The position numbers were made by a program, and so were the translations under genes. From Henricia sp. BOLD:AAB3569 (Eukaryota; Echinodermata; Asteroidea; Spinulosida; Echinasteridae), in assembly GCA_037783545.1 (NCBI GenBank), contig JBBELK010000482.1, forward strand, positions 992,001 through 1,056,000: a DNA stretch of 64,000 bases, in the 5' to 3' direction. Positions within the stretch are counted from its first letter, which is position 1. Each line of letters begins with the position of its first letter. This document shows positions 19,680 through 52,700 of the stretch, piece by piece. The notes under the pieces are model-generated. The model had not been told where the DNA came from, searched no databases, and saw only the letters and a program-made list of their open reading frames with translations.

Positions 19680-19975
19680 TAAGGGCAAAACCTTAATTAA
19701 CATTCATTCTCCCCGACGCAAGCTCAATCAATTACTGACTAATTGCGATCCCCGTTGCTAACTGATTCGAACCGGCCGCTCAACACCGGCTAGCTCGGTG
19801 GTCGAGACGTCTGTCTTGATTGCAGGAGGTCGTGGGTTCGAATCCCACCCGAGCACGCTATGAAGTTTTTCATAGTGTCTCGGGAAAGCACTGAGTATAC
19901 AGTGCTAATATACACGGGTAAGGGAAAAACCTTAATTAACATTCATTCTCACCGACGCAAGCTCAATATATCAAT
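19680..19975 (+). repeat. tRNA-like unit between direct repeats
   Basis: A tRNA-like core at 19788-19857 has box A 'tagctcggtggtcgag' and a perfect T arm (gtggg-ttcgaat-cccac), but its acceptor stem does not pair, so it is not a working tRNA. It is flanked by two copies of 'ccttaattaacattcattct' (about 19690 and 19929). Related T-arm ends lie on the minus strand at 47095-47160 and 37085-37145, so this is a tRNA-derived repeat family. Confidence 0.6.
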
Positions 19976-25600: not shown

Positions 25601-28600
25601 ACAACGTTGCCTTTGTAGTTGGGGTCGTCCTTTTTGTCGTACGAGACCAATCGTGGTGGGGCGAGACCCAAGGCGTCGCCATTGCCGGATGTCCACGACA
25701 ACACGTTGTACACGTCGTCGCACACAATCAGGATGTCATATTGTCTTGCAAGTTCAATGATGCGTCGGCATTTCTCTGCAAACGAAATCGAATACTGATC
25801 TTGGAGTTTGGGAACGTTCCGCCAAACGAATTTACTGTGACTGTACTGTGCAAGCCCCATTCAGTGTTCTCCACTACTAAAATTTCGTCCGGGTGCGCTG
25901 AGCAGCGCCCTGTAGCAGCGAATCAGTGTTCGCCGCGTGAGGGCACTGTTCAAACGAATGCATGCAACTGCCGTTAGTGTATGGCGTGTATGGCGGACAC
26001 AATAGACTTTTATCACGGTGCATCCATCTTCATCTTGTTCCCCACTGCATTGTACGTGTCGGGCATGATCAGTGCGTGTGCGTGTCTGCGCGATAGGAGG
26101 GCGCACTTTGAAGTGGGTATAAAATCGAATAAAATGCAATATAACTGTATTTTTCACTTTGCACTTATTTATTTTGTTTTTGGAAAGAAATACAATTATT
26201 AAAAAATTCATACCCAAATAAAATTACGCCCACTCCTTTGTTCCACCATACTTCTAAAAGACTTATGGCCGATGCGATAGATATGCGTGATTTATAATAA
26301 GTGAACGATAATGACACCAGTGGCTAGCTAATCATGTTTGGTGACTTTACACCTAATTTTGGAATGACTTGGCTGTACTTGTTTTAGAGGGGAAAATTGA
26401 TTATTTTTGTCTGGGCGGCGCGCCCCTGACAAAACCAGTAGTGGAGAACGCTGCCATTGTTTACTGCAAGGTTGTGTTATTTTACAGGACAAAAATGTTC
26501 TTGAAGGATTACTTTTGTCTCTGTATAAGCCGAGTGGGAGATTCCTGTGGCCTCAATGTTTTAGAAAAACTACACTACCCATCAAAACTTTGGAAACACC
26601 TTGAAAGTTTCAGGTTTTTGAGTAGAAAACGTATAATTTTGTGAATGTTAATTTTGTGAAAGCAAATGTAGGTGTATTCTAACAAAAAGCAATATATACA
26701 TGTTAATTTTAGTGCCATCTTCGGCCTCGGCAGTGGGCTTTATCAACAAATTGGAGAGCATGCAAAAAGAAACGGCTAAACTTGATGTTCATCAAAGAAT
26801 CCCCCTCTTAGCAGCTATGACAGCTACACACAATCTCTGCATCCTATTGTCAGTTTTCCAAAATATTCAGTGGAAATACACCTCTTTTAAGACTCTCCAG
26901 AGGTTTTTATGATCCAACTCCTCCCAGAGCAGCTCAATGGGTTTGAGATCAGGTGACTGGGCAGGCCATTCCATGATGGACAGCACTCCAGATGACTGCT
27001 TTCTCTCCAGGTACACCTCCGTTTGCTTTAATAGCTTGGTTTATTATAAATAAACAAAATAATACTTCCTTCTCAAAAACCTAAAACTTTCAAGGTGTTT
27101 CCAAAATGTTGATGGGTAGTGTATATTGCTTCATTTGATGAAGATTCGACGATGATTTCACAAAGGGAATCACGTTGGCATAGTAGTGCTTTCCTCGCCT
27201 TTCACCTCTGTGGCCCTGGTTCAAATCCCATCTGGGTCAGTATGTGGGTTCTCAGTCCCTGCTTGATTCTGTGGGTTTCTATCATACATAGGGGTTTTCC
27301 TCCCACCTCTAAAACTGAGCATTTCTTCATCGTTTTCTCTTCACAGGTTTCATCAGGCTTATGAGCTACAGTGCCTTGGGTCTCTTCATTCGATAAAACA
27401 AAACAGCTCCACGGGACTCCCCTTTATGAATATACATGAGGTATGTTAATAAGGAGTAGATACTTTACCTGGTGAATAGGAGATTGTCGTTGGGTTATGG
27501 AAGACTGTGATGGCATATAGCATAGCACGGAAAGGCCGAGTTGATGTTAGTTCACGTTTATCGTTGGCTTTAAGTTCCTTCAGTTTCGTCTCAAGAATTT
27601 CTGTGTCGATGCCATCACTCTTCAAGGGAACTTGGTAGGAGGTTGACGTGTATGGTGTTAGTTACAAAAATATAAGGCGGTCTACCGTCTTTCCAGAAAA
27701 ATGGGAGCCAAAGTGTGACATTTTGATGCATTTTTAAAAATTGCTTTTTTCAAGTTCTAAGTTTCTGTGCAATTACTAAATAATTGGGGCAAATATTAAG
27801 TGATCTCAGGGAGGGGTGGTTATCTCATTGAAGGGTTTATCCCTCTGTAGAGCTTGTTAAGCTCACGTGATAGCCAATCCCAATCTGTGAAGAACAACTG
27901 CAATACCCTGTTTCGAGACAACCAGTTGGCTTCATAGCTCAATTGGTAGAGCGTCTGCTCATTAAGCAGGTCTGCGGTTCAAATCCCGGTGGAGCCAAGG
28001 TGTTTTTCACTGCATCTACATTACCCAAACTCACTGACATTTGTCCACATTTGTATGCAATTACTAAATAGTATAGAATGTTTAAAATAATTTGCAAACG
28101 GTTAGACATGTCTTGGCATTATAATTTTGATAATTCTCAAGAAACTTGTTTGATGACGCATTAAGGGAACACCAAGGTATTTTTCAACTCTAACAATTAC
28201 ATCTTAAGAATGGTGCTGGTTTTACCCACCCAATAGAATCTGTAATTTGTAAATTTGGAACACATTTGTGCCCTTACAATGCATAGTTCCGACCTGTCAA
28301 TCAAGCCGAACCCGCGACCAATCACAACAGAGCTAGCAGACGGCGCCCACAAAGGTCAAAGTGATGCAATCATCGATCACAATCACGCAATTGTTTTGCC
28401 CATACAGTTTGTATGTTGTATGCGCACTGTGACCGGGTGAATTTTGGTTTCAATGTCGGGCGATTCGCTGTTCAAAGGTAGGAAAGCGCATTTTTATGAA
28501 ATATATGTCATCCCTGCATTACTAGCCCTTCGCTCAGTGTGTGCTACGGTAACTGTCGACCCCAAAACATAAATACCTTTGAGTTTTCTCCAATTAATCT

Positions 28601-31600: not shown

Positions 31601-33907
31601 GACCAGGACCAAACAAAATTGGGTATTAATTTTGTTCACTGGTCGCCACTGAGATGGCGTGCGGTAAGTCTATGATGGAAATTGTTGAACATTTTTCACA
31701 CCTAAATTCACTTCCCTTTAAAACACATTTTGGTGGTTATTGAGTCATTATAAGAAGATTAGAAGAATTAATGGAATTCTTTCCCAAAATGTTCTCGAGA
31801 CCAAGACCACTGGGTTTTATATGCCAATGTTCGTCGTTTGCAATTATGTTCATCTACTCACACGTCAACCGGACTTCCGTATCCTTGACTAAGGAACTTG
31901 GCTAATTCCAGTCGGCAAATCGGATCACCAAAAGTGTTTCCATACTGAAAAAGATCCCCATCGCCTGCATTTTCTTCTGCCTATGGATGGAAGAGGGTTA
32001 AAAAAAAAAGCAGTTGATACGTAGTTGGCGACATTTCTCGGAGTGATTAGTTGAAAAAGTAAGAATTGAAAAGTTGATCACTGGTTTGTTTTGGTATTTT
32101 TTTTTCGTATACATTGAACAAAGATTTGGAAAAAATTACCTCTTGGAATCAACAGATCATCCAATTCTGAGATATACATGTACTTCCCCACTTGATTATC
32201 TTAATGAATGCAATTTTTGTAGAGAAACATTTGCGACAGAAGTGTGGAAGAGCGTGGGGTATGAAATCAGAGGTTGTGGGTTCAAAATTAATGAATTTTC
32301 CACTCTAAAACACTGTGAAAGTACTTAACACACAAATCTATCGCATTAACGTCAATATTAGTCAGTGAGCTTTCCTTTCATAAAGTGGATTGTTGTCATT
32401 TTGCCTCGAAATTAGAATCACACCCAAAAATGTCCTCCTAGTTGTGTCCTACAGTGGTTTGAGATGTCCATGATTGGAAAATGATTCGAAAAAAAGACTT
32501 ACAGAACCGATTTTGAAGCCAAAATTTCCTCTTGCGTGGAATCCGGACGAGGATTTTCTTCGTAACTGTAAATTCTGGACGCTAGAGGGCGCTGTTACGA
32601 ACTAGTGGCTTTGGCTATGGCTTTGCTGTTGCAATGGGCAGACAATAAAGGTCCTTAGAAACAGCATAGTAACAGCATAGCCATAGCCAAAGCCACTAAT
32701 TCAGAATTTACAGTTACGAAGAAGATCCTCGTCCGGATTCCACGCAAGAGGAAATTTTGGCTTCAAAAACGGTTCTGTACATCTTTTTTTTGAATCATTT
32801 TCCAATCATGGACATCTCAAACCACTGTAGGACACAACTAGGAGGAAATTTTTGGGTGTGATTCTAATTTTTAGGCAAAATGACAACGATCCACTTTATG
32901 AAAGGGGTTCCTTCTGTCCCTACGGGAAATCCCGTAGGGACAGAATCATTCTGTCTACATCAATATAACACCCAGCAAACGAAAGTCGCAGCCCGGACCA
33001 TTCACGTGCCTCTTCTGTGCATTGAACATGATTAGTAGTCTGGTCTACTGATTTGTCGCGCACAACGGAATCGAACTCGAAGTGTTCGATTAATATAAAA
33101 TGCAGCTGCAGACACTGGCTGCCATTATGCGATTCAATCAATTGATATTCCAGCTAGTACAAAATTTGACGAAAAATCGGCATAAATCGCTTCTCTGCTC
33201 TCAAATATCCACCTCTACCGTGCATAGTTTATTCCTGACTAAGAAGGCCATGGCAGACTGTATACCAATCAAAAAGAGACGTCTGGAAATTGAAGATTCC
33301 GGCCAGTTTGCAGAAAATGACTTCAAGTCAGGGTATTTTGTACACGGCAGAATAGCAATTGGGAATTTAACAGACCATGTGACATCGCAGGTCCTACTTG
33401 TCAGTTTATAAATTCTTTCCCAAAATAATGAAATAAATTCACATTTCCTCACCAGATTTTAAGTAACTGTCAATTGTCAAGCCGTAAGAAACTATTCTTA
33501 TTGAGAATAATTTGTGTATACAGAATAAAATGACTATGAAACCTAGCAAAGAATCCAAACCAAATTACCAATCTTCTCGCAGCGGCCTGTGACATGAGAG
33601 CGGCCACCGCCTTCAGCCTATCGGGGCCCGGCCCGCCGATGCTCAGTTGTTGGTTCACGCCGCTGAACAAGTTCCTGGACTTGAAGTCATTTTCTGCAAA
33701 CTGGCCGGAATCTTCAATTTCCAGACGTCTCTTTTTGATTGGTATACAGTCTGCCATGGCCTTCTTAGTCAGGAATAAACTATGCACGGTAGAGGTGGAT
33801 ATTTGAGAGCAGAGAAGCGATTTATGCCGATTTTTCGTCAAATTTTGTACTAGCTGGAATATCAATTGATTGAATCGCATAATGGCAGCCAGTGTCTGCA
33901 GCTGCAT
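22659..33907 (-). CDS. PLP-dependent class I/II aminotransferase (KAT/aminoadipate-like), 9 exons
   Basis: Exons (minus strand): 33569-33907, 31862-31980, 30182-30333, 27469-27630, 25508-25775, 24634-24748, 24312-24383, 23867-23970, 22659-22782. All introns are GT-AG, all phases agree, and the total is 484 codons plus TAA. An in-frame TAA lies three codons before the ATG. The family transfers amino groups from amino acids to 2-oxo acids. Key features: PGPD motif in exon 1; LFQYG in exon 2; SGGATQAL (PLP phosphate site) in exon 3; HNPT in exon 4; D277-x-x-Y280 and PLP lysine near K323 (GTFSKFMGPG) in exon 5; GGYFIWVELP in exon 8; CLRLSF, holding the substrate-carboxylate Arg, in exon 9. The first 80 residues are basic and Ser/Thr-rich, which suggests mitochondrial import. 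Most like fungal YER152C and kynurenine/aminoadipate aminotransferases; the substrate cannot be told. Introns hold many MITEs. Confidence 0.92.
23160..23680. repeat. Tandem pair of dispersed repeats in aminotransferase intron 8
   Basis: Two related blocks start near 23170 and 23525 with 'agaaaaccaccttc(g/a)g' and continue through 'attcatgtg(g/a)tgtttg' and 'ttttcttgtcaactcatga'. The segment between them matches the repeats at 1-250 and 37680-37880. Confidence 0.6.
24808..25321. mobile_element. MITE family copy 2, with internal 'cacttcgccc' expansion
   Basis: Inverted relative to 22186-22582, sharing 'cgtctcat(a/g)agacgaaaa' and 'gttagacgaagtacggagct'. The centre (24995-25160) holds about ten degenerate copies of a 13-16 bp unit built on 'ccacttcgcccaaa'. 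Lies in aminotransferase intron 5. Confidence 0.8.
25995..26105 (+). mobile_element. MITE end, 'agaccTTTATCACGGTGC' family
   Basis: 'agacttttatcacggtgcat' followed by 'gtgtcgggcatgatcagtgc' matches the two ends of the fuller element at 59517-59790, so this is a partial or rearranged copy. Confidence 0.55.
26573..27121 (-). mobile_element. Deleted Tc1-type DNA transposon
   Basis: Inverted ends 'cactacccatcaaaactttg' and 'gatgggtagtg' are each flanked by TA, the Tc1/mariner target duplication. On the minus strand, about 26880-27005 translates to a transposase C-terminal segment containing 'WPAQSPDLKPIELLWEELD', which holds the last catalytic acidic residue of the DDE triad. The rest of the transposase is missing, so the element is dead and non-autonomous. 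It sits in aminotransferase intron 4. Confidence 0.88.
27165..27370 (+). repeat. SINE copy with tRNA-like head
   Basis: A degenerate box-B-like 'ggttcaaatcccatc' at 27218 is followed by 'ggttttcctcccacctctaa' and 'actgagcatttcttc'. A piece of the same family lies at 17240-17315. Located in intron 4. Confidence 0.5.
27934..28002 (+). tRNA. tRNA-like sequence, probably a pseudogene or SINE head
   Basis: A full 7-bp acceptor stem (ggcttca/tggagcc), a good D arm (gctc...gagc) and an anticodon stem are present, with a TTTTT run just downstream. The variable loop is too short, the T stem has two mismatches, and position 33 is C rather than T (loop TCATTAA). It is therefore unlikely to be functional. 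It lies in aminotransferase intron 3, on the opposite strand to that gene. Confidence 0.45.
28278..28726. mobile_element. MITE of about 450 bp, TIR 'caatgcatagttccga', copy 1
   Basis: 16-bp ends 'caatgcatagttccga' and 'tcggaactatgcat(ag)' enclose a core with 'cctgtcaatcaagccgaacc' near one end and 'ggggcggggttaactgggca' near the other. The same element lies in the opposite orientation at 47222-47687. No transposase frame. Confidence 0.85.
28727..30181. other. Aminotransferase intron 3, no gene seen
   Basis: Contains short inverted segments around 28950-29090 and a TTTA microsatellite at 29663-29684. No extra exon is needed, because the flanking exons join in phase. Confidence 0.6.
30334..31861. 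other. Aminotransferase intron 2; MITE at 31194-31556
   Basis: Holds AT-rich 'attcgaata' repeats (30470-30830), a G-rich tract (30916-30941), and an element whose ends are 'ccagggttgtaacgagtc' and 'gtcattataaccctgg'. The interior of that element is made of short 'gagtc/aagtc' repeats. Confidence 0.6.
32088..32330. mobile_element. Degraded copy of the 'ggtatttttttcgtatacat' MITE
   Basis: Shares 'ttttttcgtatacattgaac', 'ttggaatcaacag' and 'aacatttgcgaca' with the full elements at 48772-49176 and 54586-54992, but the right end is lost. In intron 1. Confidence 0.6.
32374..32905. mobile_element. 532-bp palindromic foldback element
   Basis: Arms of about 235 bp are near-perfect complements, from 'cctttcataaagtgga' to 'tccactttatgaaagg'. 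The centre lies near 32640, in 'ggctttggctatggcttt ... agccatagccaaagcc'. The left arm has an extra 25 bp (ggacgctagagggcgctg...). A second, separate perfect hairpin (ttctgtccctacggg-aaat-cccgtagggacagaa) directly follows at 32910-32943. Confidence 0.88.
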
Positions 33908-34034
33908 TTTATATTAATCGAACACTTCGAGTTCGATTCCGTTGTGCGCGACAAATCAGTAGACCAGACTACTAATCATGTTCAATGCACAGAAGAGGCA
34001 CGTGAATGGTCCGGGCTGCGACTTTCGTTTGCTG
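32972..34034. repeat. Perfect inverted duplication of aminotransferase promoter and exon 1 start
   Basis: 32972-33329 and 33680-34034 are inverted copies that appear identical by eye over about 355 bp, separated by about 350 bp. Each arm contains the proximal promoter and the first 77 or so codons of exon 1. A third, diverged copy lies at about 55140-55480. Confidence 0.9.
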
Positions 34035-37000
34035 CTGTTTTACCACATGATCTATCCGTTTGAAAATCAAGGTTGGGTAAGGGCGGGGCGTAACCCCGGC
34101 CGTATATTATATTAGGGAGGTTTAGATGCACGTAAAACGCGAACGTGAACGCAAAATGCTTTGAGCACCTTGGTCGTTACTTTGAGGACATCTTAGATTA
34201 GACAGGGGCACGGGTTCTCCTTTTTCATATGCATTTTTTCATACTTATCAAGGAAAGAACTTTAAAATGTCAAACCCTTCGTGGTCAGTTTCACTTTTTT
34301 TTATTTGGTCAACATTTCACCCGAAATGCAAATTATGCAAATTTATACTGGATAGTACATCATTACGCAAATATATGCAAATTTATACTGGGTGGTACAT
34401 CATTACACAAATATATGCAAATTTATACTGGGTACATAAACTACACTGTACTACACTTCTGGGGCACGTTGAAACCCCAACAAAATGGGTTTTCTGAAAG
34501 CCCTTAATAATTTGAGCATTCTTCCACAAAATGGCACACTTCATTAAACAAATCCTTTTGGACCTGGATTTAAATTATTGAATCCAATAAACATCTCATT
34601 TAGGGGCTGTCTAAAGTTGTCAACATTTTCATGGAACTGCAAATCCTAAGAAGGGGATGGGGTAGAGGGCCGCATACACTCTTTGACTGTGCACAGTAGT
34701 GACAAAAACGGTTTAGTTGTATTTCAGGGAGGAGTTTGTTTGAAGAAGAACAAAATACGCTTTGTAGAACCAGGAAAATGTTGACAACTTAAAACGGCCT
34801 CTTACAAAAAAAGCAAAAAAGAAAAAGAAAAATGTCAATCATAAATACACAATAACTAATAATAAACTAATAAAACCGCCAAAAATTTAAAAGGATTTTA
34901 GGAACACTAGTAAACTGCAGGAATGTTCAGAGAAACTGCAAAACATATAAAGACGAGAAAAATACACAAGGCAAAAATTAAGTTAAAAATTTAACTTATA
35001 TGTTAAGTGGAAGTGTCCTCTCATTTGTATACAAATTGTGTCAATTTACAGTAACAATTTCTCCTTCTTCCCAAACAGAGAGAGCTCCTATTTTCTGCAA
35101 GGGAATCAACTAGATTGATGACATCAGGCTTTTACCAAAGAGAGGGTTTCCTTGAGAACGTCTTTCATCTTTCGATCACCTACAACCAAGGTAAGATACA
35201 ATGTTTTTCTCTTCAAATCTCCCCTATACCACATCTTTTAACACCTTGATTGTCAGAAACCTAATGACAAATTCTAGATCTACGGCATTGACTCCTTTTG
35301 CTATGCGGAGATGACCATTTTTTGTATCAATCTGCAGTATACCAAAAGCTGGAACTGTTGTGGCTTTTATTCCGAATAGGTTTGTTATTTATCACAGAAG
35401 AAATACATGTACTTGATCGATTTTGTCTTTGTGTGCTACAAAATGTTTCTGACAAAAATGTTCACATTTACTGTCATTGTTTCTGTTTTCAGTGCCATGT
35501 GCCATAGTGGTGACTGCATTCCAGTCATTTTTATGTCTGCGACGAATCTGACGATTGTGGGGTTTACACCACCGAACATGAATATGGTAAGTTGACAACA
35601 TTTCTTGAGAAATCTTAAAAGTTTAAAGCTGCTTTTTGAGAGTGGGAATTTTCAGCACATCGAAGCTTCATGCAGCAATATGTAATGAAGCTGTTAAGTG
35701 AATATTTTGATGTCAACTTAAAGACAGAGGCTTGTCAGCATATTTTGATTAAACTGAAATTTTGCATTTCTTTAGTTGCTTGGTATACATTGCATTTTGT
35801 CTTTTGTTTTCCCATTGCACTTTTGTGTAATAATCTGTAAGCAGAATGCAACATTATAAATTTAACGTGTCGACCCTATTTGTGAAATTTTCTGCACAGA
35901 AGCTTTCAAGTCATCACACAAGGCCGTCGTCTGGTCTATGTATCCTTAAATACTACATGAAGATGACACCTTCACCAAAAGGTATTGTGTTGTCGTACAT
36001 TTGTATTATCTTACCATTGTTTTAGTGCACAGAGTCTTGGTGTTGAAGCTTTGTTAACATAACAAGATAAATGTAACGGGTGGTTGTGTGTCATTCATCG
36101 ATCAGTTTTTGGCACCATCACACGTTTTGTATGGTTTTCAATGGTTCATATTTTGTGGTGTTTGTATTTGTAACAATAATGTATGGTGTTAAATGGATGT
36201 AATATTCTCTTACCCAATGCTATATGCACTATACAGGGTGTTTTTAAAAAAGGAAACCGAGATTAATTTGTTAATTTCGTGGAGATGGCTAAATATTTTG
36301 GAAATTGGCAACCACCATCTATTAGCTAATGATGTCCTCTTTCTTATGACACCACGAAATCCAATTTACGGTCACACATGACTGAGCACGGAGCAGTGTA
36401 ATCAACCATGTCAGAACTGGTCTTGCACCAAAAAGATGTTTTCATAATGAACCATGTCTGCCCAGTGCAGGGCTTTTGTTGGGCCTCCAAATTATGCAAT
36501 CCTCAGCCTGTTATTTCATTGCACACTCCTTAAAAGTTGGAAAGGTTGTTCATTTTCTCAGACCAGCAAAATGCAGCTAACAACTGAGCAGCGTGTGTTA
36601 GTGGTACAGAGTGGTTGAGGACTGGAAGCCTCCAGCAAGTAGCAGATGCCTTTGATCAACGTTTTCCTGGCCGTGCCATTCCCGCCAAGTCGACAACCAC
36701 TCTGTTACCACTAACACACGCTGCTCAGTTGTAAGCTGCATTTTGCTGGTCTGAGAAAATGAACAACCTTTCCAACTTTTAAGGAGTGTGCAATGAAATA
36801 ACAGGCTGAGGATTGCATAATTTGGAGGCCCAACAAAAGCCCTGCACTGGATAGACATTGTTTATTATGAAAACATCTTTTTGGTGCAAGACCAGTTCTG
36901 ACATGGTTGATTACACTGCTCCGTGCTCAGTCATGTGTGACCGTAAATTTGATTTTGTGGTGTCCTAAGAAAGAGGACATCATTAGCTAATAGATGGTGG

Positions 37001-38340
37001 TTGCCAATTTCCAATATATTTAGCCATCTCCACGAAATTAACAAATTAATTAAAACACCCTGTATAAACTAAGTGCTTTTTCCCTTCAAGCATGCTCTGG
37101 TGGGGCTTGAACCCATGACCTCCTGCATACTAGGCAGATGCATGTACCATGTCGTTCGGGACAAATTACATCCATTTAACGTCATACGGACCACTGAAAC
37201 AATAATTCCCTTATTTTAAAAATGTATGGGTTGCACTTGTATTTCGATTCTTAAAGGAGCATGACCAGAGTTTCTGGAAAATAGTTTTCGATGTAACTTA
37301 CCAATATTATCAAGTAACTCCCATACACACCTCCCATGTCCCAAAAACCCGAAAACATTCGCGATTTCCAGTAAAAGATTGAACAAAACTATCGTCGGCT
37401 TTCAGTGGATAAACGTTGATACTGGAAAATTAGTTTACAAATAATCGGTGGATTTTCGACGATATCCTCGGAAATATGCGGCCTAGAAGCGCGGGAGTTT
37501 CAGTTTCGTAATCAGAAAAATATAACAGATGTTATGATATAAAAATCTCATGACCCATAAGGTAAGTCCCGGGGAGTTATGGGTAAAAAAAAGTGATCTG
37601 GTCACACTCCTTTAAGTATACTTCTCTTTTAAAGTTGACACAGTTTCACAATCAAAAGCATACGACTTCAGAATACTTAAAGGTAGAACACATGATTGGT
37701 AAACTGATAAAAGGGGCGTTATTTCCACTTATGATTAGAAGCCCATGTTAATAAAACTGCCCTGTAGACATTTCAGCCACATAGGTGCAGTAATACTTCT
37801 GAAAACTTGAAAAATCCATGCGTAGTTTTTGAGTTGAGTTGAATGGTAAAAAATCTTTTGCAAAACAAGGCATCAATCTTTATGTCATCCATGCAATCGT
37901 TGCATGGTTGACGTCGTTATCAGCACATAGTTGCATTAGTTTATCATCACAATTGTGTTGCCGACGTTGAAAACAAGATTCTCTGATTCTCATTCAGGTT
38001 TATGCACCTGCAATATACATCGGTAATACTTTTGATTAAATTTGTTGCTGACTTCAAACAAGTGTCATCCCTTCAGAGCATATAGTCATAACTTCGGGAT
38101 CACCTTGTGCCCATAATCTTAACCATGCCCCTCATTGTAGTCAATACTTGTATATTGTCTCACCTCGCTCCTGGTTTTGCCCCCTCTCCTGCTGCTCTAT
38201 TATTATTACATGTACCAGCACATGGTGTGTGCAAAGAATACATTTTTGAAATTTACAATTTACATATGTACTTGTTTTTTCTTTCTTTCTTTCCAGACAC
38301 CGAGGGCCTCCTGTTGTCTCTGAGGGAACAAATAGATTGA
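33100..38340 (+). CDS. Probable small six-exon gene of unknown function
   Basis: Candidate exons (plus strand): 33100-33390, 35079-35190, 35349-35379, 35493-35586, 35900-35981, 38297-38340. All introns are GT-AG and the phases match throughout, giving 217 codons and a TGA stop. I do not recognise the product. Visible pieces: exon 2 ends FLENVFHLSITYNQ; exon 4 has CHSGDCIPVIFMSATNLTIVG; the C-terminus is DTEGLLLSLREQID. Exon 1 is the weakest call, because it is the inverted copy of aminotransferase exon 1 followed by 18 new codons to a CAG/GTCCTA donor. If it is real, the protein shares its basic N-terminus with the aminotransferase; otherwise the true 5' exon is elsewhere. Exons 2-5 recur in inverted orientation at 48594-53716 with the same splice sites, which supports genuine exons. 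The 31-bp exon 3 uses a weak acceptor (ccaaaag), replaced by ccaatag in the duplicate. Confidence 0.5.
34035..34110 (-). promoter_or_regulatory. Candidate aminotransferase promoter with GC box
   Basis: A GC box 'gggcggggc' lies at 34081-34089, about 175 bp upstream of the exon 1 ATG. The third copy of the region (near 55515) has lost it ('gtaaggggcgtaac'). Confidence 0.45.
34338..34440 (+). repeat. Three tandem copies of a 40-48 bp unit
   Basis: 'gcaaatttatactgg' plus 'tacatcattac(g/a)caaatata' recurs three times. A single diverged unit is seen at 46790-46840. Confidence 0.7.
34600..34810. mobile_element. MITE, TIR 'ggggctgtctaaagttgtca'
   Basis: 'ttaggggctgtctaaagttg' with 'tcaacattttc' on the left and 'gaaaatgttgacaacttaaa' with 'acggcctctta' on the right form arms of about 32 bp. 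The right end, with its flank to 35010, recurs in the same orientation at 46845-47050. Confidence 0.7.
36232..37064. mobile_element. Foldback transposon carrying a duplicated transposase N-terminus
   Basis: The ends 'tacagggtgttttt' and 'aaaacaccctgta' are flanked by TA. Arms of about 370 bp are complementary (36232-36610 against 36690-37064). Each arm encodes the start of a helix-turn-helix transposase segment, MQLTTEQRVLVV, continuing after a frame change as 'QQVADAFDQRFPGRAIPAKS'. This resembles the N-terminal domain of some IS630/mariner-group transposases (DUF4817-like). No catalytic domain is present. It sits in intron 5 of the unknown gene and is absent from the 47-55 kb duplicate. Confidence 0.8.
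37680..37885 (+). repeat. Dispersed repeat copy (family of 1-250 and 23318-23560)
   Basis: 'acatgattggtaaactgat', 'gcccatgttaataaaactgc', 'cagtaatacttctgaaaa' and 'gttgaatggtaaaaaa' occur in the same order as in the other copies. Confidence 0.6.
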
Positions 38341-38859
38341 TACAAATTTCTGGATTTACCAACAGGGCGCGAGCAGGACAAGGAAGTGTTTAAGACTGGT
38401 CAGTTTTTATCATCCGTTTAAGACTGGCCACAGGACGTGCTTTAAGTCTATACGGATGCGTAAACTGGCAAAGTATTCATGATTATGTATTTTACAATGG
38501 AAATGAACAGTGTCTCTGGCCGTCGGCTGCCAATGGCACCACCCACCCACCTATGTATGCAAATTGTCTTCAGGAACAAGCATAATCAGATGTAAAACTT
38601 GTTTCTGAGGAAAATTAATGTACTGACAGCTTTAAGTATGACTGCATAAAGTTTTGCTGAAAATTGTTTTTAGTTAAAAAATTAAAACAATTTAAAAAAT
38701 AAAACCTTGGGAACATTAGGTGAAAGAAACTTGTAAGCTTCATGCAACTCGGCCTATGCGCTGCGAAAGTGAACATGTTATGAAATGTGCGTAATATAAA
38801 TGTACTAATATGTTATCTTATGTTATCTTATGCTTATGTTATCTTATGCTTATTGTAAC

Positions 38860-39110
38860 ACCCAATGTTATGAAGAGATTTTTGCCACATAGTGGAAGCG
38901 AAATGATTCTGGTGATTTCCTGATGGCAGCGGTGCCAAGATTACCCTCATGTATAGATATGTATGCTATACAAGAATCTAACATTACTATTTGTGTATCG
39001 CTAAACATATGTTTACTGTCTGAAAGACTACAATAGCTAACGCTCAATTTTGGCAAGAATCTCTTCAGGTCTTAGTCCTCATTTACGTGGTTCTCTCTTT
39101 GAGCCAGCAG
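38860..39110. repeat. Dispersed 'tatagcgcacatatc' repeat, left-arm copy
   Basis: On the minus strand it reads 'attcttgtatagcatacata', 'ggcaccgctgccatcaggaa' and 'agaatcatttcgcttc'. Paralogues lie at 47760-47960 (the duplicate) and 63720-63845 (an independent insertion). Preceded by a 'ttatcttatgct' microsatellite at 38812-38850. Confidence 0.6.
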
Positions 39111-39204
39111 CAAATTCAACTCAATTCCCCATCATCCACCGTCGTACCAATTATTGTAAGTTCCATAAAGTTCGATCCCCGCCCGTGCATAACGTGTCTT
39201 CAAA

Positions 39205-41275
39205 AACCCCCCCCAAAAAAACAAAAAAAAACCCAAAAACGAGTGGTAGGGTACCAAAAAAAAAACCCAAAAAACAAGTGTGGTAGGGTACCAAAAAAAA
39301 CCCCAAAAAAACAAGTGTAGGGTACCAAAAAACCTTAAAACAAGTGCTTAAAAACAAGTGTTGGGTACCAAAAAAAACCAAAACAAGTGGTAGGGTACCA
39401 AAAAAAACCAAGTGGTAGGGTACCAACAAAAAACAAAAACAAGTGGTAGGGTACCAAAAAACCTTAAAACAAGTGCTTAAAAACAAGTGTAGCCTAGGGT
39501 ACCAAAAAAAAACCTTAACAACAAGTGCTAGGGTACCCAAAAAAAAACCCAAAACAAGTGCTAGGGTACCTACCACTTATTTAGATTTTTTTTTGGGTAC
39601 CCTACACTTGTTTTTTTTTTGGTTTGGTACCCTACCACTTGTTTTTAAGCACTTGTTTTAAGGTTTTTTGGTACCCTACCACTTGTTTTGGTTTTTTTTT
39701 GGTACCCTACCACTTTTTTTTTTTTTTTTTTGGTACCCAACACTTGTTTTGGTTTTTTTTTGGTACCCTACACTTGTTTAGGTGTTTTTTTGGTACCCTA
39801 CCACTTGTTTTGGTGTTTTTTTGTTACCCTACCACTTGTTTTGGTTTTTTTTTGGTACCCTACCACTTGTTTTGGTTTTTTTTTGGTACCCTACCACTTT
39901 TTTTTTTTTTTTTTTTTTGTTACCCTATCACTTTTTTTGGTTTTTTTTTGGTACCCTACACTTGTTTTGGTTTTTTTTTGGTACCCTACCACTTGTTTTT
40001 GTTTTTTTTTGGTACCCCTATCACTTTTTTTGGTGTTTTTTTGTTACCCTACCACTTGTTTTGGTTTTTTTTTGGTACCCTACCACTTGTTTTGGGTTTT
40101 TTTTTGGTACCCTACCACTTGTTTTTTTTTTTTTGTTTTGTTACCCTATCACTTGTTTTGGTTTTTTTTTGGTACCCTACCACTTGTTTTGGTTTTTTTT
40201 TGGTACCCTACCACTTGTTTTGGTGTTTTTTTGTTACCCTACCACTTGTTTTGGTGTTTTTTTGTTACCCTACCACTTGTTTTGGTTTTTTTTTGGTACC
40301 CTACCACTTGTTTTTGTTTTTTTTTTTTGTTACCCTATCACTTGTTTTGGTTTTTTTTTGTTACCCTACCACTTGTTTTGGTTTTTTTTTGGTACCCTAC
40401 CACTTGTTTTTTTTTTTTTTTTTTGTTACCCTATCACTTGTTTTGGTTTTTTTTTGTTACCCTACCACTTGTTTTGGTTTTTTTTTGGTACCCTACCACT
40501 TGTTTTGTTTTTTTTTTGGTACCCTACCACTTGTTTTGGTTTTATTTTTTTGTTACCCTATCACTTGTTTTGGTTTTTTTTTGGTACCCTACCACTTGTT
40601 TTGGTTTTTTTTTTGGTACCCTACCACTTGTTTTTGTTTTTTTTTGGTACCCTACCACTTGTTTTGGTTTTTTTTTTTTGTTACCCTATCACTTGTTTTG
40701 GTTTTTTTTTGGTACCCTACCACTTGTTGTGGTTTTTTTTTTGGTACCCTACCACTTGTTTTTGTTTTTTTTTGGTACCTACCACTTGTTTTTGTTTTGT
40801 TTTGGTACCCTACCACTTGTTTTGGTGTTTTGTTGTTACCCTACCACTTGTTTTGGTTTTTTTTTGGTACCCTACCACTTGTTTTTTTTTTTTTGGTACC
40901 CAACACTTGTTTTGGTTTTTTTTTGGTACCCTACCACTTGTTTTGGTGTTTTTTTGGTACCCTACCACTTGTTTTGGTGTTTTTTTGTTACCCTACCACT
41001 TGTTTTGGTTTTTTTTTGGTACCCTACCACTTGTTTTGGTTTTTTTTTGGTACCCTACCACTTGTTTTTGTTTTTGTTTTTTGTTACCCTATCACTTGTT
41101 TTGGTTTTTTTTTGGTACCCTACCACTTGTTTTGGTTTTTTTTTTTTTTGGTACCCCACACTTGTTTTGGTTTTTTTTGGTACCCTACCACTTGTTTTGG
41201 TTTTTTTTTGGTACCCTACCACTTGTTTTTTTTTTTTTTTGGTACCCTACCACTTGTTTTGGTTTTTTGGCTGTT
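39205..41275. repeat. T-rich minisatellite with GGTACC core, switching orientation near 39575
   Basis: The unit is 'ggtaccctaccacttgtttt' plus 'ggttttttttt', about 31-36 bp. From 39205 to 39575 the units run as the complement (caagtggtagggtaccaaaa); after 39575 they run forward for about 48 copies. The variants gttaccctatcac and ggtacccaacac recur. Three overlapping forward frames of 548-586 codons are open only because the unit lacks stops. A further block lies at 43556-43735. Confidence 0.92.
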
Positions 41276-43470: not shown

Positions 43471-43735
43471 ACAAAGGTCATCCCGAACACCATATATGTT
43501 TATAAAAAGGAGGGGAACAGCCATGTGTTCGTTGTCAAGAACGAACACAGGTCTAGTTTTTTTTTGTTACCCTATCACTTGTTTTGGTTTTTTTTTTGTA
43601 CCCTACCACTTGTTTTGGTTTTTTTTTTGGTACCCTACCACTTGTTTTTTTTTGGTACCCTACCACTTGTTTTTAGGGGTTTTTTTGGTACCCTGCGGTA
43701 GCAGCTGTAGCACTTGTTTTTTGGTAAACATAGTG

Positions 43736-46604
43736 CTTTTTGTAGAAGCTCTACGGTAACCCTAGTGCTTTTTGTAGAAGCGCCACGGTAACCCTAGTGC
43801 TTTTTGTAGAAGCGCCACGGTAACCCTAGTGCTTTTTGTAGAAGCGCCACGGTAACCCTAGTGCTTTTTGTAGAAGCGCCAAGGTAACCCTAGTGCTTTT
43901 TGTAGAAGCGCCACGGTAACCCTAGTGCTTTTTGTAGAAGCGCCACGGTAACCCTAGGGCTTTTTGTAGAAGCGCCACGGTAACCCTAGGGCTTTTTGTA
44001 GAAGCGCCACGGTAACCCTAGGGCTTTTTGTAGAAGCGCCACGGTAACCCTAGGGCTTTTTGTAGAAGCGCCACGGTAACCCTAGGGCTTTTTGTAGAAG
44101 CGCCACGGTAACCCTAGGGCTTTTTGTAGAAGCGCCACGGTAACCCTAGGGCTTTTTGTAGAAGCGCCACGGTAACCCTAGGGCTTTTTGTAGAAGCGCC
44201 ACGGTAACCCTAGTGCTTTTTGTAGAAGCGCCACGGTAACCCTAGTGCTTTTTGTAGAAGCGCCACGGTAACCCTAGGGCTTTTTGTAGAAGCGCCACGG
44301 TAACCCTAGGGCTTTTTGTAGAAGCGCCACGGTAACCCTAGTGCTTTTTGTAGAAGCGCCACGGTAACCCTAGGGCTTTTTGTAGAAGCGCCACGGTAAC
44401 CCTAGGGCTTTTTGTAGAAGCGCCACGGTAACCCTAGTGCTTTTTGTAGAAGCGCCACGGTAACCCTAGTGCTTTTTGTAGAAGCGCCACGGTAACCCTA
44501 GTGCTTTTTGTAGAAGCGCCACGGTAACCCTAGTGCTTTTTGTAGAAGCGCCACGGTAACCCTAGTGCTTTTTGTAGAAGCGCCACGGTAACCCTAGTGC
44601 TTTTTGTAGAAGCGCCACGGTAACCCTAGTGCTTTTTGTAGAAGCGCCACGGTAACCCTAGGGCTTTTTGTAGAAGCGCCACGGTAACCCTAGGGCTTTT
44701 TGTAGAAGCGCCACGGTAACCCTAGGGCTTTTTGTAGAAGCGCCACGGTAACCCTAGGGCTTTTTGTAGAAGCGCCACGGTAACCCTAGGGCTTTTTGTA
44801 GAAGCGCCACGGTAACCCTAGGGCTTTTTGTAGAAGCGCCACGGTAACCCTAGTGCTTTTTGTAGAAGCGCCACGGTAACCCTAGGGCTTTTTGTAGAAG
44901 CGCCACGGTAACCCTAGGGCTTTTTGTAGAAGCGCCACGGTAACCCTAGGGCTTTTTGTAGAAGCGCCACGGTAACCCTAGGGCTTTTTGTAGAAGCGCC
45001 ACGGTAACCCTAGTGCTTTTTGTAGAAGCGCCACGGTAACCCTAGGGCTTTTTGTAGAAGCGCCACGGTAACCCTAGGGCTTTTTGTAGAAGCGCCACGG
45101 TAACCCTAGGGCTTTTTGTAGAAGCGCCACGGTAACCCTAGTGCTTTTTGTAGAAGCGCCACGGTAACCCTAGTGCTTTTTGTAGAAGCGCCACGGTAAC
45201 CCTAGTGCTTTTTGTAGAAGCGCCACGGTAACCCTAGTGCTTTTTGTAGAAGCGCCACGGTAACCCTAGTGCTTTTTGTAGAAGCGCCACGGTAACCCTA
45301 GTGCTTTTTGTAGAAGCGCCACGGTAACCCTTGGGCTTTTTGTAGAAGCGCCACGGTAACCCTAGTGCTTTTTGTAGAAGCGCCACGGTAACCCTAGTGC
45401 TTTTTGTAGAAGCGCCACGGTAACCCTAGGGCTTTTTGTAGAAGCGCCACGGTAACCCTAGTGCTTTTTGTAGAAGCGCCACGGTAACCCTAGTGCTTTT
45501 TGTAGAAGCGCCACGGTAACCCTAGGGCTTTTTGTAGAAGCGCCACGGTAACCCTAGTGCTTTTTGTAGAAGCGCCACGGTAACCCTAGTGCTTTTTGTA
45601 GAAGCGCCACGGTAACCCTAGTGCTTTTTGTAGAAGCGCCACGGTAACCCTAGTGCTTTTTGTAGAAGCGCCACGGTAACCCTAGTGCTTTTTGTAGAAG
45701 CGCCACGGTAACCCTAGTGCTTTTTGTAGAAGCGCCACGGTAACCCTAGTGCTTTTTGTAGAAGCGCCACGGTAACCCTAGTGCTTTTTGTAGAAGCGCC
45801 ACGGTAACCCTAGTGCTTTTTGTAGAAGCGCCACGGTAACCCTAGTGCTTTTTGTAGAAGCGCCACGGTAACCCTAGTGCTTTTTGTAGAAGCGCCACGG
45901 TAACCCTAGTGCTTTTTGTAGAAGCGCCACGGTAACCCTAGTGCTTTTTGTAGAAGCGCCACGGTAACCCTAGTGCTTTTTGTAGAAGCGCCACGGTAAC
46001 CCTAGTGCTTTTTGTAGAAGCGCCACGGTAACCCTAGGGCTTTTTGTAGAAGCGCCACGGTAACCCTAGTGCTTTTTGTAGAAGCGCCACGGTAACCCTA
46101 GTGCTTTTTGTAGAAGCGCCACGGTAACCCTAGTGCTTTTTGTAGAAGCGCCACGGTAACCCTAGTGCTTTTTGTAGAAGCGCCACGGTAACCCTAGTGC
46201 TTTTTGTAGAAGCGCCACGGTAACCCTAGGGCTTTTTGTAGAAGCGCCACGGTAACCCTAGTGCTTTTTGTAGAAGCGCCACGGTAACCCTAGTGCTTTT
46301 TGTAGAAGCGCCACGGTAACCCTAGTGCTTTTTGTAGAAGCGCCACGGTAACCCTAGGGCTTTTTGTAGAAGCGCCACGGTAACCCTAGGGCTTTTTGTA
46401 GAAGCGCCACGGTAACCCTAGCGCTTTTTGTAGAAGCGCCACGGTAACCCTAGTGCTTTTTGTAGAAGCGCCACGGTAACCCTAGTGCTTTTTGTAGAAG
46501 CGCCACGGTAACCCTAGTGCTTTTTGTAGAAGCGCCACGGTAACCCTAGTGCTTTTTGTAGAAGCGCCACGGTAACCCTAGCGCTTTTTGTAGAAGCGCT
46601 CGGG
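43736..46604 (+). repeat. 32-bp satellite, about 90 copies
   Basis: Unit 'gcgccacggtaaccctag(t/g)gc' plus 'tttttgtagaa', with an exact 32-bp period over 2.87 kb. Copies differ almost only at one site (tagTgc or tagGgc), with rare 'tagCgc' and one 'ttgggc'. The left edge grades out of the GGTACC minisatellite (43681-43740). At the right edge (46605-46720) units are degenerate and some are inverted. Confidence 0.97.
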
Positions 46605-46734
46605 TTACCGTAGCGCTTTCTGTAGCGCTTTTTTTTAAGGGCTACGGTAAGCCTAGCACTTTTTGTAAAAACGCTAGGGTTAACGTAGCGCTTTCACAAA
46701 AAGCACTAGGGTTATCGCGGGTTTCTCTAAAATG

Positions 46735-47221: not shown

Positions 47222-47687
47222 ACAATGCATAGTTCCGAGATTGCCCAGTTAACCCCGCCCCCTTGGATATTGTTGCTATGTGCTCACAAGCCATCGCAAA
47301 AAAATGGCGAGACTACGTACAAAGCAACGGGACTCGGCATGGAAAGCACAGATTCATTGGAAAAAACCCAAAGGTATTTATGTTTTGAGGTCGACAGTTA
47401 CCGTATAGCGTAGCACACACTGAGCGAAGGGCTAGTAATGCAGGGATGACATATCTTTCATAAAAATGCGCTTTCCTACCTTTGAACAGCGAATCGCCCG
47501 ACATTAAAACCAAAATTCACCCGGTCACTGGCGCATACAACATACAAACTGTATGGGCAGAACATCGCGGATTGTTTGTGATGATTGCATCACTTTGACG
47601 TTTGTGGGCGCAGTCTGCTAGCCCTGTTGTGATTGGTCGCGGGTTCGGCTTGATTGACAGGTCGGAACTATGCATTGGTACGACAGT
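47222..47687. mobile_element. MITE 'caatgcatagttccga', copy 2
   Basis: The same element as 28278-28726 in the opposite orientation, with perfect 16-bp ends. The matching place in the left duplicate (near 39140-39155, 'ggtaccaa-type' flank 'tcgtaccaattattgtaagt') has no element, so this copy inserted after the duplication, or was lost from the left. Confidence 0.85.
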
Positions 47688-48236
47688 GGACGATGGAGAA
47701 TTTAGTTGAATTTCTCGATTTGCTGCTGGCTTAAGAGAACCACTGAGGACTTAGACCTGAAGAGATTCTTGCCAAAATTCAGCGTTGTAGTCTTTTAGAC
47801 AGTAAACATACCTTTTAGACAGTAAAGCGATACACAAATAGTAATGTTAGATTCTTGTATAGCGCACATATCTACCCTATACATGAGGGTAATCATGGCA
47901 CCGCTGCCATCAGGAAATCACCAGAATCATTTCGCTTCAACTAGGTGGCAAAAATATCTTGATAACATTGGGTGTTACAATAAGCATAAGTTAGATAACA
48001 TAATTAATAAATTAGTAAATTTATATCAAGCACATTTCATAACATGTTCACTTTCGCAGCGCATAGGCCGAGTTGCATGAAGCTTACAAGTTTCTTTCAC
48101 CTGATGTTCCCAACTTTTGTTTTTTTTTGTTTTTAAAAAAACCCCAATTTTCAGCACACCAAAGCTTTATGCAGTCATAGGCCTACTTAAAGCTGTTACA
48201 TTAATTTTCCTCAGAAACAAGTTCTACATTTGATCC

Positions 48237-48373
48237 AAGGCTCAGGCTCGTCAGCAATGTGCGCGCGCCAAATTCGTGCCACTAGATACGCAGCTCCATA
48301 GCAAAGGCATGAAGCTGTGTATTTCCTGGCACGAGTTTGGCACGCGCGCATTGCTGACGAGCCTGTGCCTTTA
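48237..48373. mobile_element. Foldback MITE, 'caggctcgtcagcaatg' family
   Basis: Arms 'ggctcaggctcgtcagcaat' and 'attgctgacgagcctgtgcc' with a core of about 70 bp. Absent from the equivalent position near 38580 in the left copy. Confidence 0.8.
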
Positions 48374-48771
48374 AACTTGTTCCTGAAGACAATTTGCATA
48401 CATAGGTGGGTGGGTGGTGCCATTAGCAGCCGACGGCCAGAGACACTGTTTATTTCCATTGTAAAATACATAATCATGAATACCTTAGACAGTTTACGCA
48501 TCCGTATAGACTGAAAGCACGTCCCCTGGCCAGTCTTAAATTCAGTGCACTAAAACAATGGTAAGATAATACAAATGTATGACAACACAATACCTTTTAG
48601 TATTGTCAACTTCATGTAGTATTTAAGGATACATAGACCAGACGACGGCCTTGTGTGATGACTTGAAAGCTTCTGTGCAGAAAATTTCACAAATAGGGTC
48701 GACACGTTAAATTTATGATGTTGAATTCAGCTTACAGATTATTACACAAAAGTGCAATGGGAAAACAAAAT

Positions 48772-49176
48772 GGTATTTTTTTCATATACATTGAACACGG
48801 ATTTGAGTAAATTTATATATTGGAATCGATAGCTTATTAAATTCTAAGATATACTTCCCACTGACGCTTCCGTCGCAAATGTTGCATTTCTGAGATAAAT
48901 AAATGATAAAATTACTGCATAAAGTAATGCACAAAATGACGCGGCGAGCGGTCTGTGCGTAAGCGCGACAACAGAGGGCGCTGCGCGCGCGTGTGAATGG
49001 TTATCTTGTGCACTAACTGAAGGCAATTTTTGAAGAAGAAAACGTGATTTTTCTACAGAAAAGCAACATTTGCGACAAAAGTGCAAGTGGGAAGTATATC
49101 TTAAAATTACATTATCTGTTGATTCCAGGAGATAATTTCCTTAAAATATTTGTTCAATGTATACGAAAAAAATACC
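48772..49176. mobile_element. 405-bp MITE, TIR 'ggtatttttttcgtatacat'-type, copy 1
   Basis: Arms of about 120 bp start 'ggtatttttttcatatacat' and end with the near-complement 'gtatacgaaaaaaatacc'. It is flanked by AACAAAAT and AACAAAAG. The uninterrupted site in the left duplicate (near 35803-35810, read on the minus strand) has AACAAAAG once, so the target duplication is 8 bp, as in hAT-type elements. The interior has 'acagagggcgctgcgcgcgc'. Confidence 0.88.
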
Positions 49177-49279
49177 AACAAAAGACGAAATGCAATGTAG
49201 ACGAAATGCAATGTATACCAAGCAACTAAAGAAACGCAAAATTTCAGTTTAATCAAAATCTGAATTTTTTTTCGTTATT

Positions 49280-49356
49280 AAAAGGCACAGGCTCGTCAGC
49301 AATGCGCGTGCGCCAAATTCATGCCACGAAATACGCTGACGAGCCTCTGTCTTTAA
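49280..49356. mobile_element. Shortened 'caggctcgtcagcaatg' MITE
   Basis: 'aaaggcacaggctcgtcagc' on the left and 'gctgacgagcctctgtcttt' on the right with almost no core. The left duplicate keeps a remnant (aaagacagaggcttgtcagc at 35720-35740), so it predates the duplication. Confidence 0.75.
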
Positions 49357-49777
49357 GTTGACATCAAAATATTCACTTAACAGCTTCATTACATATTGCT
49401 GCATGAAGCTTCCATGTGCTCAAAATTCCCACTCTCAAAAAGCAGCTTTAAACTTTAAAGATTTCTCAAGAAATGTTGTCAACTTACCATATCCATGTTC
49501 AGCGGTGTAAACCCCACAATCGTCAGATTCGTCGCAGACATAAAAATGACTGGAATGCAGTCACCACTACGGCACATGGCACTGAAAACAGAAACAATGA
49601 CGGTTAACATTTTGTCAGAAACATTTTGTAACACAAAGACAAAATGGATCAAGTACATATATTTCTTCTGTGATAAATGACAAACCTATTCGGAATTAAA
49701 AAGCCACAATAGTTCCAGCTATTGGTACTACAGATTGATACCAAAAACGGTTATCTCCGCGAAGCAAAAGGAATCAA

Positions 49778-52700
49778 TGCCTGTCGGCGCCGATGACCCC
49801 GGTCCTGGAAAAAAAGAAAGTCCTGAAATCTGCCAAAATGAGGTGGGGATATGCTAACTTTTCATTTAGGATTATTTCTAAGGCATTTTCGGAAGAGTCA
49901 ATTTTTTGTAAATTTTGTAAGGACCGTACCTGTCGGCGCCGATGAACCCGGTCCTGGAAAAAAAGAAAGTCCTGAAATCTGCCAAAATGAGTTGGGGATA
50001 TGCTAAATTTTCATTTAGGATTATTTCTAAGGCATTTTCGGAAGAGTCGATTTTTTGTAAATTTTGTAAGGACCGTACCTGTCGGCGCCGATGACCCCGG
50101 TCCTGGAAAAAAGGAAAGTCCTGAAATCTGCCAAAATGAGGTGGGGATATGCTAACTTTTCATTTAGGATTATTTTTAAGGCATTTTCGGAAGAGTCGAT
50201 TTTTTGTAAATTTTGTAAGGACCGGACCTGTCGGCGCCGATGACCTCGGTCCTGGTAAAAAAGGAAAGTCCTGAAATCTGCCAAAATGAGGTGGGGATAT
50301 GCTAACTTTTCATTTAGGATTATTTTTAAGGCATTTTCGGAAGAGTCGATTTTTTGTAAATTTTGTAAGGACCGGACCTGTCGGCGCCGATGACCTCGGT
50401 CCTGGTAAAAAAGAAAGTCCTGAAATCTGCCAAAATGAGTTGGGGATATGCTAAATTTTAATTAAGGATTATTTCTAAGGCATTTTCAGAAGAGTCTATT
50501 TTTTGAAAATTTTGTAAGGACCGTACCTGGCGGCGCCGATGAACCCGGTCCTGGAAAAAAAGAAAGTCCTGAAATCTGCCAAAATGAGGTGGGGATATGC
50601 TAACTTTTCATTTAGGATTATTTCTAAGGCATTTTCGGAAGAGTCGATTTTTTGTAAATTTTGTAAGGACCGTACCTGTCGGCGCCGATGACCCCGGTCC
50701 TGGAAAAAAAGAAAGTCCTGAAATCTGCCAAAATGAGTTGGGGATATGCTAAATTTTCATTTAGGATTATTTCTAAGGCATTTTCAGAAGACTCCTCTAT
50801 TTTTTGAAAATTTTGTAAGGACCGGACCTGTCGGCGCCGATGACCCCGGTCCTGGAAAAAAAGAAAGTCCTGAAATCTGCCAAAATGAGGTGGGGATATG
50901 CTAACTTTTCATTTAGGATTATTTCTAAGGCATTTTCGGAAGAGTCGATTTTTAAAAAATTTTGTCAGGACCGTACCTGTCGGCGCCGATGAACCTGGTC
51001 CTGGAAAAAAAGAAAGTCCTGAAATCTGCCAAAATGAGGTGGGGATATGCTAACTTTTCATTTAGGATTATTACTAAGGCATTTTCGGAAGAGTCAATTT
51101 TTTGTAAATTTTGTAAGGACCGGACCTGTCGGCGCCGATGAACCCGGTCCTGGAAAAAAAGAAAGTCCTGAAATCTGCCAAAATGAGTTGGGGATATGCT
51201 AAATTTTCATTTAGGATTATTTCTAAGGCATTTTCGGAAGAGTCGATTTTTTGTAAATTTTGTAAGGACCGTACCTGTCGGCGCCGATGACCCCGGTCCT
51301 GGAAAAAAGGAAAGTCCTGAAATCTGCCAAAATGAGGTGGGGATATGCTAACTTTTCATTTAGGATTATTTTTAAGGCATTTTCGGAAGAGTCGATTTTT
51401 TGTAAATTTTGTAAGGACCGGACCTGTCGGCGCCGATGACCTCGGTCCTGGTAAAAAAGAAAGTCCTGAAATCTGCCAAAATGAGTTGGGGATATGCTAC
51501 ATTTTCATTTAGGATTATTTCTAAGGCATTTTCGGAAGAGTCGATTTTTTGTAAATTTTGTAAGGACCGTACCTGTCGGCGCCGATGACCCCGGTCCTGG
51601 AAAAAAAGAAAGTCCTGAAATCTGCCAAAATGAGTTGGGGATATGCTAAATTTTCATTTAGGATTATTTCTAAGGCATTTTCAGAAGACTCCTCTATTTT
51701 TTGAAAATTTTGTAAGGACCGGACCTGTCGGCGCCGATGACCCCGGTCCTGGAAAAAAAGAAAGTCCTGAAATCTGCCAAAATGAGGTGGGGATATGCTA
51801 ACTTTTCATTTAGGATTATTTCTAAGGCATTTTCGGAAGAGTCGATTTTTTGTAAATTTTGTAAGGACCGGACCTGTCGGCGCCGATGAACCCGGTCCTG
51901 GAAAAAAGGAAAGTCCTGAAATCTGCCAAAATGAGGTGGGGATATGCTAACTTTTCATTTAGGATTATTTCTAAGGCATTTTCGGAAGAGTCGATTTTTT
52001 GTAAATTTTGTAAGGACCGGACCTGTCGGCGCCGATGACCCCGGTCCTGGTAAAAAAGAAAGTCCTGAAATCTGCCAAAATGAGTTGGGGATATGCTAAA
52101 TTTTAATTTAGGATTATTTCTAAGGCATTTTCAGAAGAGTCTATTTTTTGAAAATTTTGTAAGGACCGTACCTGGCGGCGCCGATGAACCCGGTCCTGGA
52201 AAAAAAGAAAGTCCTGAAATCTGCCAAAATGAGGTGGGGATATGCTAACTTTTCATTTAGGATTATTTCTAAGGCATTTTCGGAAGAGTCGATTTTTTGT
52301 AAATTTTGTAAGGACCGTACCTGTCGGCGCCGATGACCCCGGTCCTGGAAAAAAAGAAAGTCCTGAAATCTGCCAAAATGAGTTGGGGATATGCTAAATT
52401 TTCATTTAGGATTATTTCTAAGGCATTTTCAGAAGACTCCTCTATTTTTTGAAAATTTTGTAAGGACCGGACCTGTCGGCGCCGATGACCCCGGTCCTGG
52501 AAAAAAAGAAAGTCCTGAAATCTGCCAAAATGAGGTGGGGATATGCTAACTTTTCATTTAGGATTATTTCTAAGGCATTTTCGGAAGAGTCGATTTTTAA
52601 AAAATTTTGTCAGGACCGTACCTGTCGGCGCCGATGAACCCGGTCCTGGAAAAAAAGAAAGTCCTGAAATCTGCCAAAATGAGGTGGGGATATGCTAACT

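Follow-up and report, generated by a model that had tools for sequence, protein, structure and literature searches.

How does a gene come to carry, within its own first intron, an exact copy of its upstream region and first exon facing the opposite way, and does such a copy serve a second gene? The question is raised by a predicted aminotransferase gene of the sea star Henricia sp. BOLD:AAB3569 (assembly GCA_037783545.1; 740.7 Mb in 2104 contigs searched). The DNA analysed here, referred to as the window, comprises 64,000 nucleotides, bases 992001-1056000 of contig JBBELK010000482.1 (C482), and all positions given without a contig name are those of the window. Within it the start of the aminotransferase gene, on the minus strand (copy B), is repeated in inverted orientation on the plus strand (copy A), and a gene-like unit of two copies, here called unit Y, lies to the right. 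The evidence presented below suggests that copy A is probably a very young inverted templated insertion, whereas its use as the first exon of unit Y, as originally predicted, is a claim that we consider unproven.

The inverted pair and the aminotransferase gene

Copy A (32973-33329, plus strand) and copy B (34034-33678, minus strand) are identical at 357 of 357 positions. This bears out the original prediction of a perfect inverted pair of ~355 bp that includes ~77 codons, each arm being made up of 127 bp upstream of the first ATG and 230 coding bases (~77 codons), and the pair is more than a chance match. A repeat finder lengthens the arms to 366 nucleotides with four mismatches, all toward the inner end. 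Likeness between A and B is confined to the 357 bp, and the sequences flanking A show no similarity, in BLAST searches or alignments, to B or to a third copy of the exon (copy C, described below). With no differences in 357 positions, the rule of three places the divergence between A and B below about 0.8%. The arms are separated by a spacer of 348 bp (33330-33677), the minus strand of which takes in, by sequence comparison, the tail of exon 1 together with the donor, and the beginning of intron 1.

Copy B, the source stretch, forms the 5' part of aminotransferase exon 1. This exon of 113 codons runs on the minus strand from the ATG at 33907 to 33569 and ends at a donor (TTG/GTAATT) at 33568, in phase 0. 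Exon 2 (31862-31980, minus strand; donor GTGAGT) begins at 31980 after the acceptor CCATAG and carries the frame on in phase 0, so that the minus copy does join exon 2 in phase, as had been proposed. The remaining exons, which were assigned by eye from a list of open reading frames (ORFs), reach down to about 22.7 kb. Some of their donors, also read by eye, look weak (GTTGGT and GTTTGA, for example), and the aminotransferase gene itself thus seems to use some weak donors. A partial protein assembled by hand from these exons matches the Pfam family Aminotran_1_2 (PF00155, class I/II) over residues 108-438 with an E value of 6.2e-33, and its best match in the PDB is 1x0m (E 4.1e-43). All of the 56 PDB matches listed begin at residue 76 or later. 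The duplicated residues 1-77 thus appear to be a leader ahead of the enzyme fold, with residues 78-113, encoded by the tail of exon 1 that was not doubled, on the enzyme side as the start of the enzyme region. The aminotransferase with this leader is possibly mitochondrial.

Two origins for the arms were considered and rejected. A query covering exon 1 (33560-33919) matched at least three places in the animal's own genome, these being A, B and C, all inside the window; copy counts from such genome searches are lower bounds. On this count the arms are not multi-copy, unlike the terminal repeats of transposable elements or a foldback element, and their identification as a dispersed repeat or as transposon arms was rejected. 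Copying from a spliced mRNA was also rejected. The copied piece includes sequence from before the ATG and ends inside exon 1, with no splice site, and is therefore not a copy of a spliced message.

A third copy and the origin of copy A

Copy C (55143-55475, minus strand) is an older copy of exon 1, with 88% identity over the arm in BLAST. It had been missed in the earlier reading of this DNA, as had the second, inverted copy of unit Y at 53784-47674. Similarity between B and C spans about 690 bp and takes in the upstream region, the exon and the intron. Matches were found at 122 of 127 positions in the upstream region (96.1%), 195 of 204 in the leader (95.6%, with 28 gap columns), 64 of 96 in the exon tail (66.7%, 23 gap columns) and 145 of 163 at the start of intron 1 (89.0%, 30 gap columns, leaving out a repeat in C), and at 49 of 60 positions directly outside the arm. 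Copy C has lost 26 bp across the first start codons; toward the end of its leader 2 bp are inserted, an early stop follows in that frame, and the tail beyond is altered. Given these frame-breaking indels and the early stop, it looks decayed. In a comparison of 60 leader codons, five synonymous and three non-synonymous changes separate B from C, a pattern compatible with selection having acted on the leader during some or all of the period since copying.

The repeat left out of the intron comparison is about 417 bp long (54577-54993). A relative lies at 48764-49177 (92%), and pieces like it occur at 32089-32194 and in stretches L010 and L015. A search of the window against Rfam gave three tRNA matches, none of them within the inverted pair. 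The strongest (55698-55770, 63.6 bits) lies about 220 bp upstream of copy C, and the weaker two lie at 27928-27997 and 19792-19856.

Comparison with C shows where copy A sits. From 33406 on, the spacer between A and B resembles the intron of C, in the orientation of B, and A thus interrupts aminotransferase intron 1. The idea that A is the positional counterpart of C was rejected, as their flanks do not match. A and B have no differences in 357 positions, whereas B and C diverge by 11% in intron 1, which makes A either far younger than C or recently converted.

The explanation that we favour, and consider probable from these comparisons, is that A arose very recently as an inverted templated insertion. 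Inverted templated insertions of short length are a described class of mutation (PMC7954356), and terminal-inverted-repeat transposons have been linked with filler copies made through template switching (PMC8277862). For copy A we infer that replication or repair synthesis would have switched onto the opposite strand and copied backwards the 357 bp comprising the upstream region and the first exon, the product then coming to rest about 350 bp away, within intron 1 of the gene from which it was copied. Either a template switch or gap filling beside hairpin-forming DNA would suit A. A foldback found by repeat search, an imperfect palindrome with arms of 204 bp that are 96% alike (32374-32905), has its end 67 bp from A; between the two, at 32912-32945, is a palindrome of 34 bp (94%).

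Several points weigh against a templated insertion. No empty site was found in C, whose intron is alignable only as far as about 33406 and has nothing that corresponds to the sequence left of A. Microhomology at the ends of A, read by eye, is slight. The gold-standard template switches of great apes, with a median of 12 and a maximum of 128 bases, are shorter than the 357 bases copied here (PMC7954356). Finally, the same sequence would be expected from an assembly error, or if A and B had undergone gene conversion.

In the case of an assembly error, a contig end carrying a folded-back piece of exon 1 would have been joined at 32972 to the rest of intron 1, and copy A would be absent from the animal. 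The perfect identity of the arms and the lack of similarity in the flanks of A are both in keeping with this, as is the presence of a second near-perfect inverted pair on the same contig. This pair came from a control in which 31 ten-kb stretches, 25 from outside the window (16 of them on contig C482) and six from the window itself, were searched for inverted pairs whose arms were at least 99% identical and at least 300 bp long and whose spacer was shorter than 2 kb; a pair truncated at the edge of a stretch could escape this search. Two of the 31 stretches gave such a pair, one being A/B and the other C482:1405588-1408724 / 1412533-1409397 (L017/L025), with arms of 3137 bp, 99.97% identity and a spacer of 672 bp, 380 kb from A/B. 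Within the arms of the L017/L025 pair are tandem repeats as well as an ORF that encodes a single C2H2 finger. A further inverted pair in L021, cut by the end of the stretch, is 93.9% identical over 640 bp, and imperfect palindromes of at least 100 bp are common, self-palindromes being recorded in 16 of 21 outside stretches of one set. Near-perfect inverted pairs may thus be a property either of the genome or of its assembly. The window, however, contains no N, and the gene model is collinear on either side of A, with exon 2 to the left and exon 1 to the right. Given this collinearity, a single fold-back read would be insufficient and a wrong join at 32972 would be needed as well, and for this reason we regard an assembly artefact as unlikely. 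No paper on fold-back assembly artefacts was found in the literature searched, which lacks most subscription journals.

Nearby inverted repeats can undergo gene conversion, and A might therefore be old but held identical to B by conversion between the two inverted copies. The comparison of B with C could be read in this way, as they are most alike over nearly the same part that A and B share (identity is 96.1% upstream and 95.6% in the leader but falls to 89.0% in intron 1 and to 66.7% in the exon tail). The same pattern, however, is also expected under selection on the leader of B. There is, moreover, no mismatch within A, and at its edges nothing was seen that could be the diverged remnant of a longer copy. 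We consider conversion of an old copy to be decidedly unlikely.

Unit Y and the proposed shared first exon

The original prediction went further than an inverted copy. Copy A was proposed to be the working first exon of an unknown gene, such that two genes on opposite strands would share one leader and produce mutually antisense transcripts. The unknown gene corresponds to unit Y, which is present as a plus-strand copy within 35014-39151 and a minus-strand copy within 53784-47674. The right-hand copy (47674-53784) is broken by repeats and has no counterpart of 36034-38416 of the left copy. Five aligned blocks are 92-95% alike in the two copies, and the last block (38585-39151) is 82% alike. 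The left copy contains the exon originally designated exon 2 (35079-35190, plus strand), which is open only in phase 0, then an exon-like block (35493-35586, plus strand) preceded by TCAG and followed by GTAAGT, and a further exon-like block at 35900-35981 (plus strand). Between the copies, two of 112 positions differ in exon 2 and four of 95 in the next block (the 95 including one intron base). The frame from exon 2 to its stop contains one synonymous and two non-synonymous differences, and this comparison of 56 codons gave no clear sign of protein coding. The exon 2 peptide had no Pfam match at E values up to 1, nor did an alternative, hand-joined Y peptide of 71 residues at E values up to 0.1.

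Similarity between the two copies of Y stops about 65 bp before exon 2, where each meets a different repeat (34777-35012 on the left and 53789-54108 on the right), and the regions upstream are not alike beyond chance, with an alignment score of 43 against a best score of 49 in 100 shuffles. No first exon is thus seen as common to both. The order and orientation of the elements, which is X+ Y+ on the left and Y- X+ on the right (X being a copy of exon 1), does not fit one simple inverted duplication.

Formally, the frame of copy A does join exon 2 of Y, as predicted. Copy A begins with 127 bp from upstream of the ATG. An open frame of 103 codons and a stop (33100-33411, plus strand) then runs from the ATG at 33100 to the stop at 33409-33411, its final ~26 codons being antisense to intron 1. 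The GT at 33391 lies in this frame in phase 0, the one phase in which the exon at 35079 is open. Three further points favour a shared exon. In the right-hand copy of Y the exon 1 copy C likewise lies upstream and in the same orientation, exon 2 is well kept between the Y copies, with the two differences in 112 noted above, and copied or shared presequences have been reported in plants (PMC2631504).

The details of the junction argue otherwise. Scored with a hand-written donor matrix, the donor at 33391 (CAG/GTCCTA) is ordinary, at the 67th percentile among 597 plus-strand GTs of the 30-40 kb region, and it is outscored by two other GTs, at 33379 and 33400, that share its open stretch and phase. 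Open frames of this kind often arise by chance; for 26% of frame positions chosen arbitrarily, a phase-0 GT of equal quality is met within 40 codons and ahead of a stop. The ORF that links the copied leader to the donor (33330-33390) consists of DNA antisense to aminotransferase intron 1. The joined frame then stops at 35549, in the next exon-like block, to give 153 residues; two more junctions lie downstream, and the frame thus fails to run on through the second gene. The frame of C at the right-hand locus is shifted, A is not at the position of C, and the two copies of Y share no upstream region. As A matches B only over 357 bp, A does not look like an old exon of unit Y. The existence of two genes with one first exon is accordingly left unproven by signals that are no better than ordinary, and we see a working first exon in A as a remote prospect, although A may nonetheless be transcribed. 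The proposal that each first exon lies in an intron of the other gene holds for one side, with A lying in aminotransferase intron 1, whereas use of A by the second gene, on which the other side depends, is unsupported.

Other repeats are present within and around unit Y. A large imperfect palindrome in the left copy (36262-37050; arms of 345 bp, 97% alike, with a 99-bp spacer) sits in a 2.4-kb stretch that is missing from the right copy, and had no other copy in the sampled sequence. An array of 25 copies of a 149-bp unit lies within the right copy at 49780-53512. Elsewhere in the window are a minisatellite (39223-41268) with units of about 31 bp that contain GGTACCCTACCACTTGTTTTGG, the strand of which switches partway so that the array is itself an inverted repeat, and an array of about 91 copies of a 32-bp unit (43723-46625). 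A minus-strand ORF at 2931-3965 encodes a zinc finger of the nuclear-receptor C4 type (Pfam zf-C4, E 1.4e-29).

Consequences and relation to known systems

Provided that both the copy and the gene model hold, exon 1 is present in the aminotransferase pre-mRNA in sense and, in intron 1, its start is present again as an exact antisense copy. Such a transcript is predicted to form a perfect stem of 357 bp with the exon 1 donor in its loop. The predicted gene model spans B and then A, and the strand that it would transcribe does fold in prediction as a long continuous stem, with a minimum free energy of -798.2 kcal/mol (a value without shuffles at that length). Should a core promoter exist within the copied 127 bp, it would now point into the gene as well. 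We infer that at present the copy either has no effect or lowers expression mildly, by way of double-stranded RNA or antisense transcription. A bolder possibility, which we rate as highly improbable, is that the locus is a newborn self-silencing switch, in which an exon 1 hairpin is combined with antisense RNA from the second promoter, perhaps varying among individuals, and in which the plus-strand promoter may also feed unit Y.

A templated insertion that is both real and young would show, as a clean natural case, how a single copying accident can place the upstream region and first exon of a gene in antisense within an intron of that gene. Copies of this kind are material from which hairpin-RNA loci, or leaders common to more than one gene, could be built. 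Were A instead an artefact, it would be a warning, together with the larger pair 380 kb away, that near-perfect inverted pairs of this assembly require read support before gene models are built on them.

In the same body of literature, which lacks most subscription journals, we found no paper on a first exon copied in inverted form onto the opposite strand, or on a promoter duplicated along with a first exon by inverted duplication; for exon 1 and intron 1 inverted duplications linked with hairpins and double-stranded RNA, the yield was a single paper, on a plant Dicer. Every part of the finding nevertheless has a precedent. In short-range template switches, as described in PMC7954356, a nearby stretch is likewise reverse-complemented to leave a perfect inverted repeat near its source; those of the great-ape gold-standard set are smaller (a median of 12 and a maximum of 128 bases, against 357), and for A no ancestral state was seen. 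The Pack-TIRs reported in PMC8277862, filler copies made through template switching inside terminal-inverted-repeat transposons of animals, resemble A in that non-mobile sequence is copied near its source, beside a palindromic element and with little microhomology. Copy A is not known to lie within a transposon, and its flanks and the neighbouring foldback are without another copy in the sampled sequence.

Two other systems bear on what such a copy might become. In Drosophila simulans one of the de novo hairpin RNA loci, Dsim-hp58, arose one gene away from CG17385, and its inverted repeat is made from part of exon 2 of that gene (PMC10317233). Copy A differs from it in sitting in an intron of the source gene itself and in being known from DNA alone, but in both cases an inverted exon copy lies near its progenitor, with the potential for exact double-stranded RNA against it. 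In plants, the presequence of rice rps11-1 was seemingly copied from atp2, and maize and rice presequences are shared through alternative splicing (PMC2631504). Use by the second gene is reported there, whereas the leader in A is known only as sequence; what the plant presequences and copy A have in common is an N-terminal leader in a form that another gene could use.

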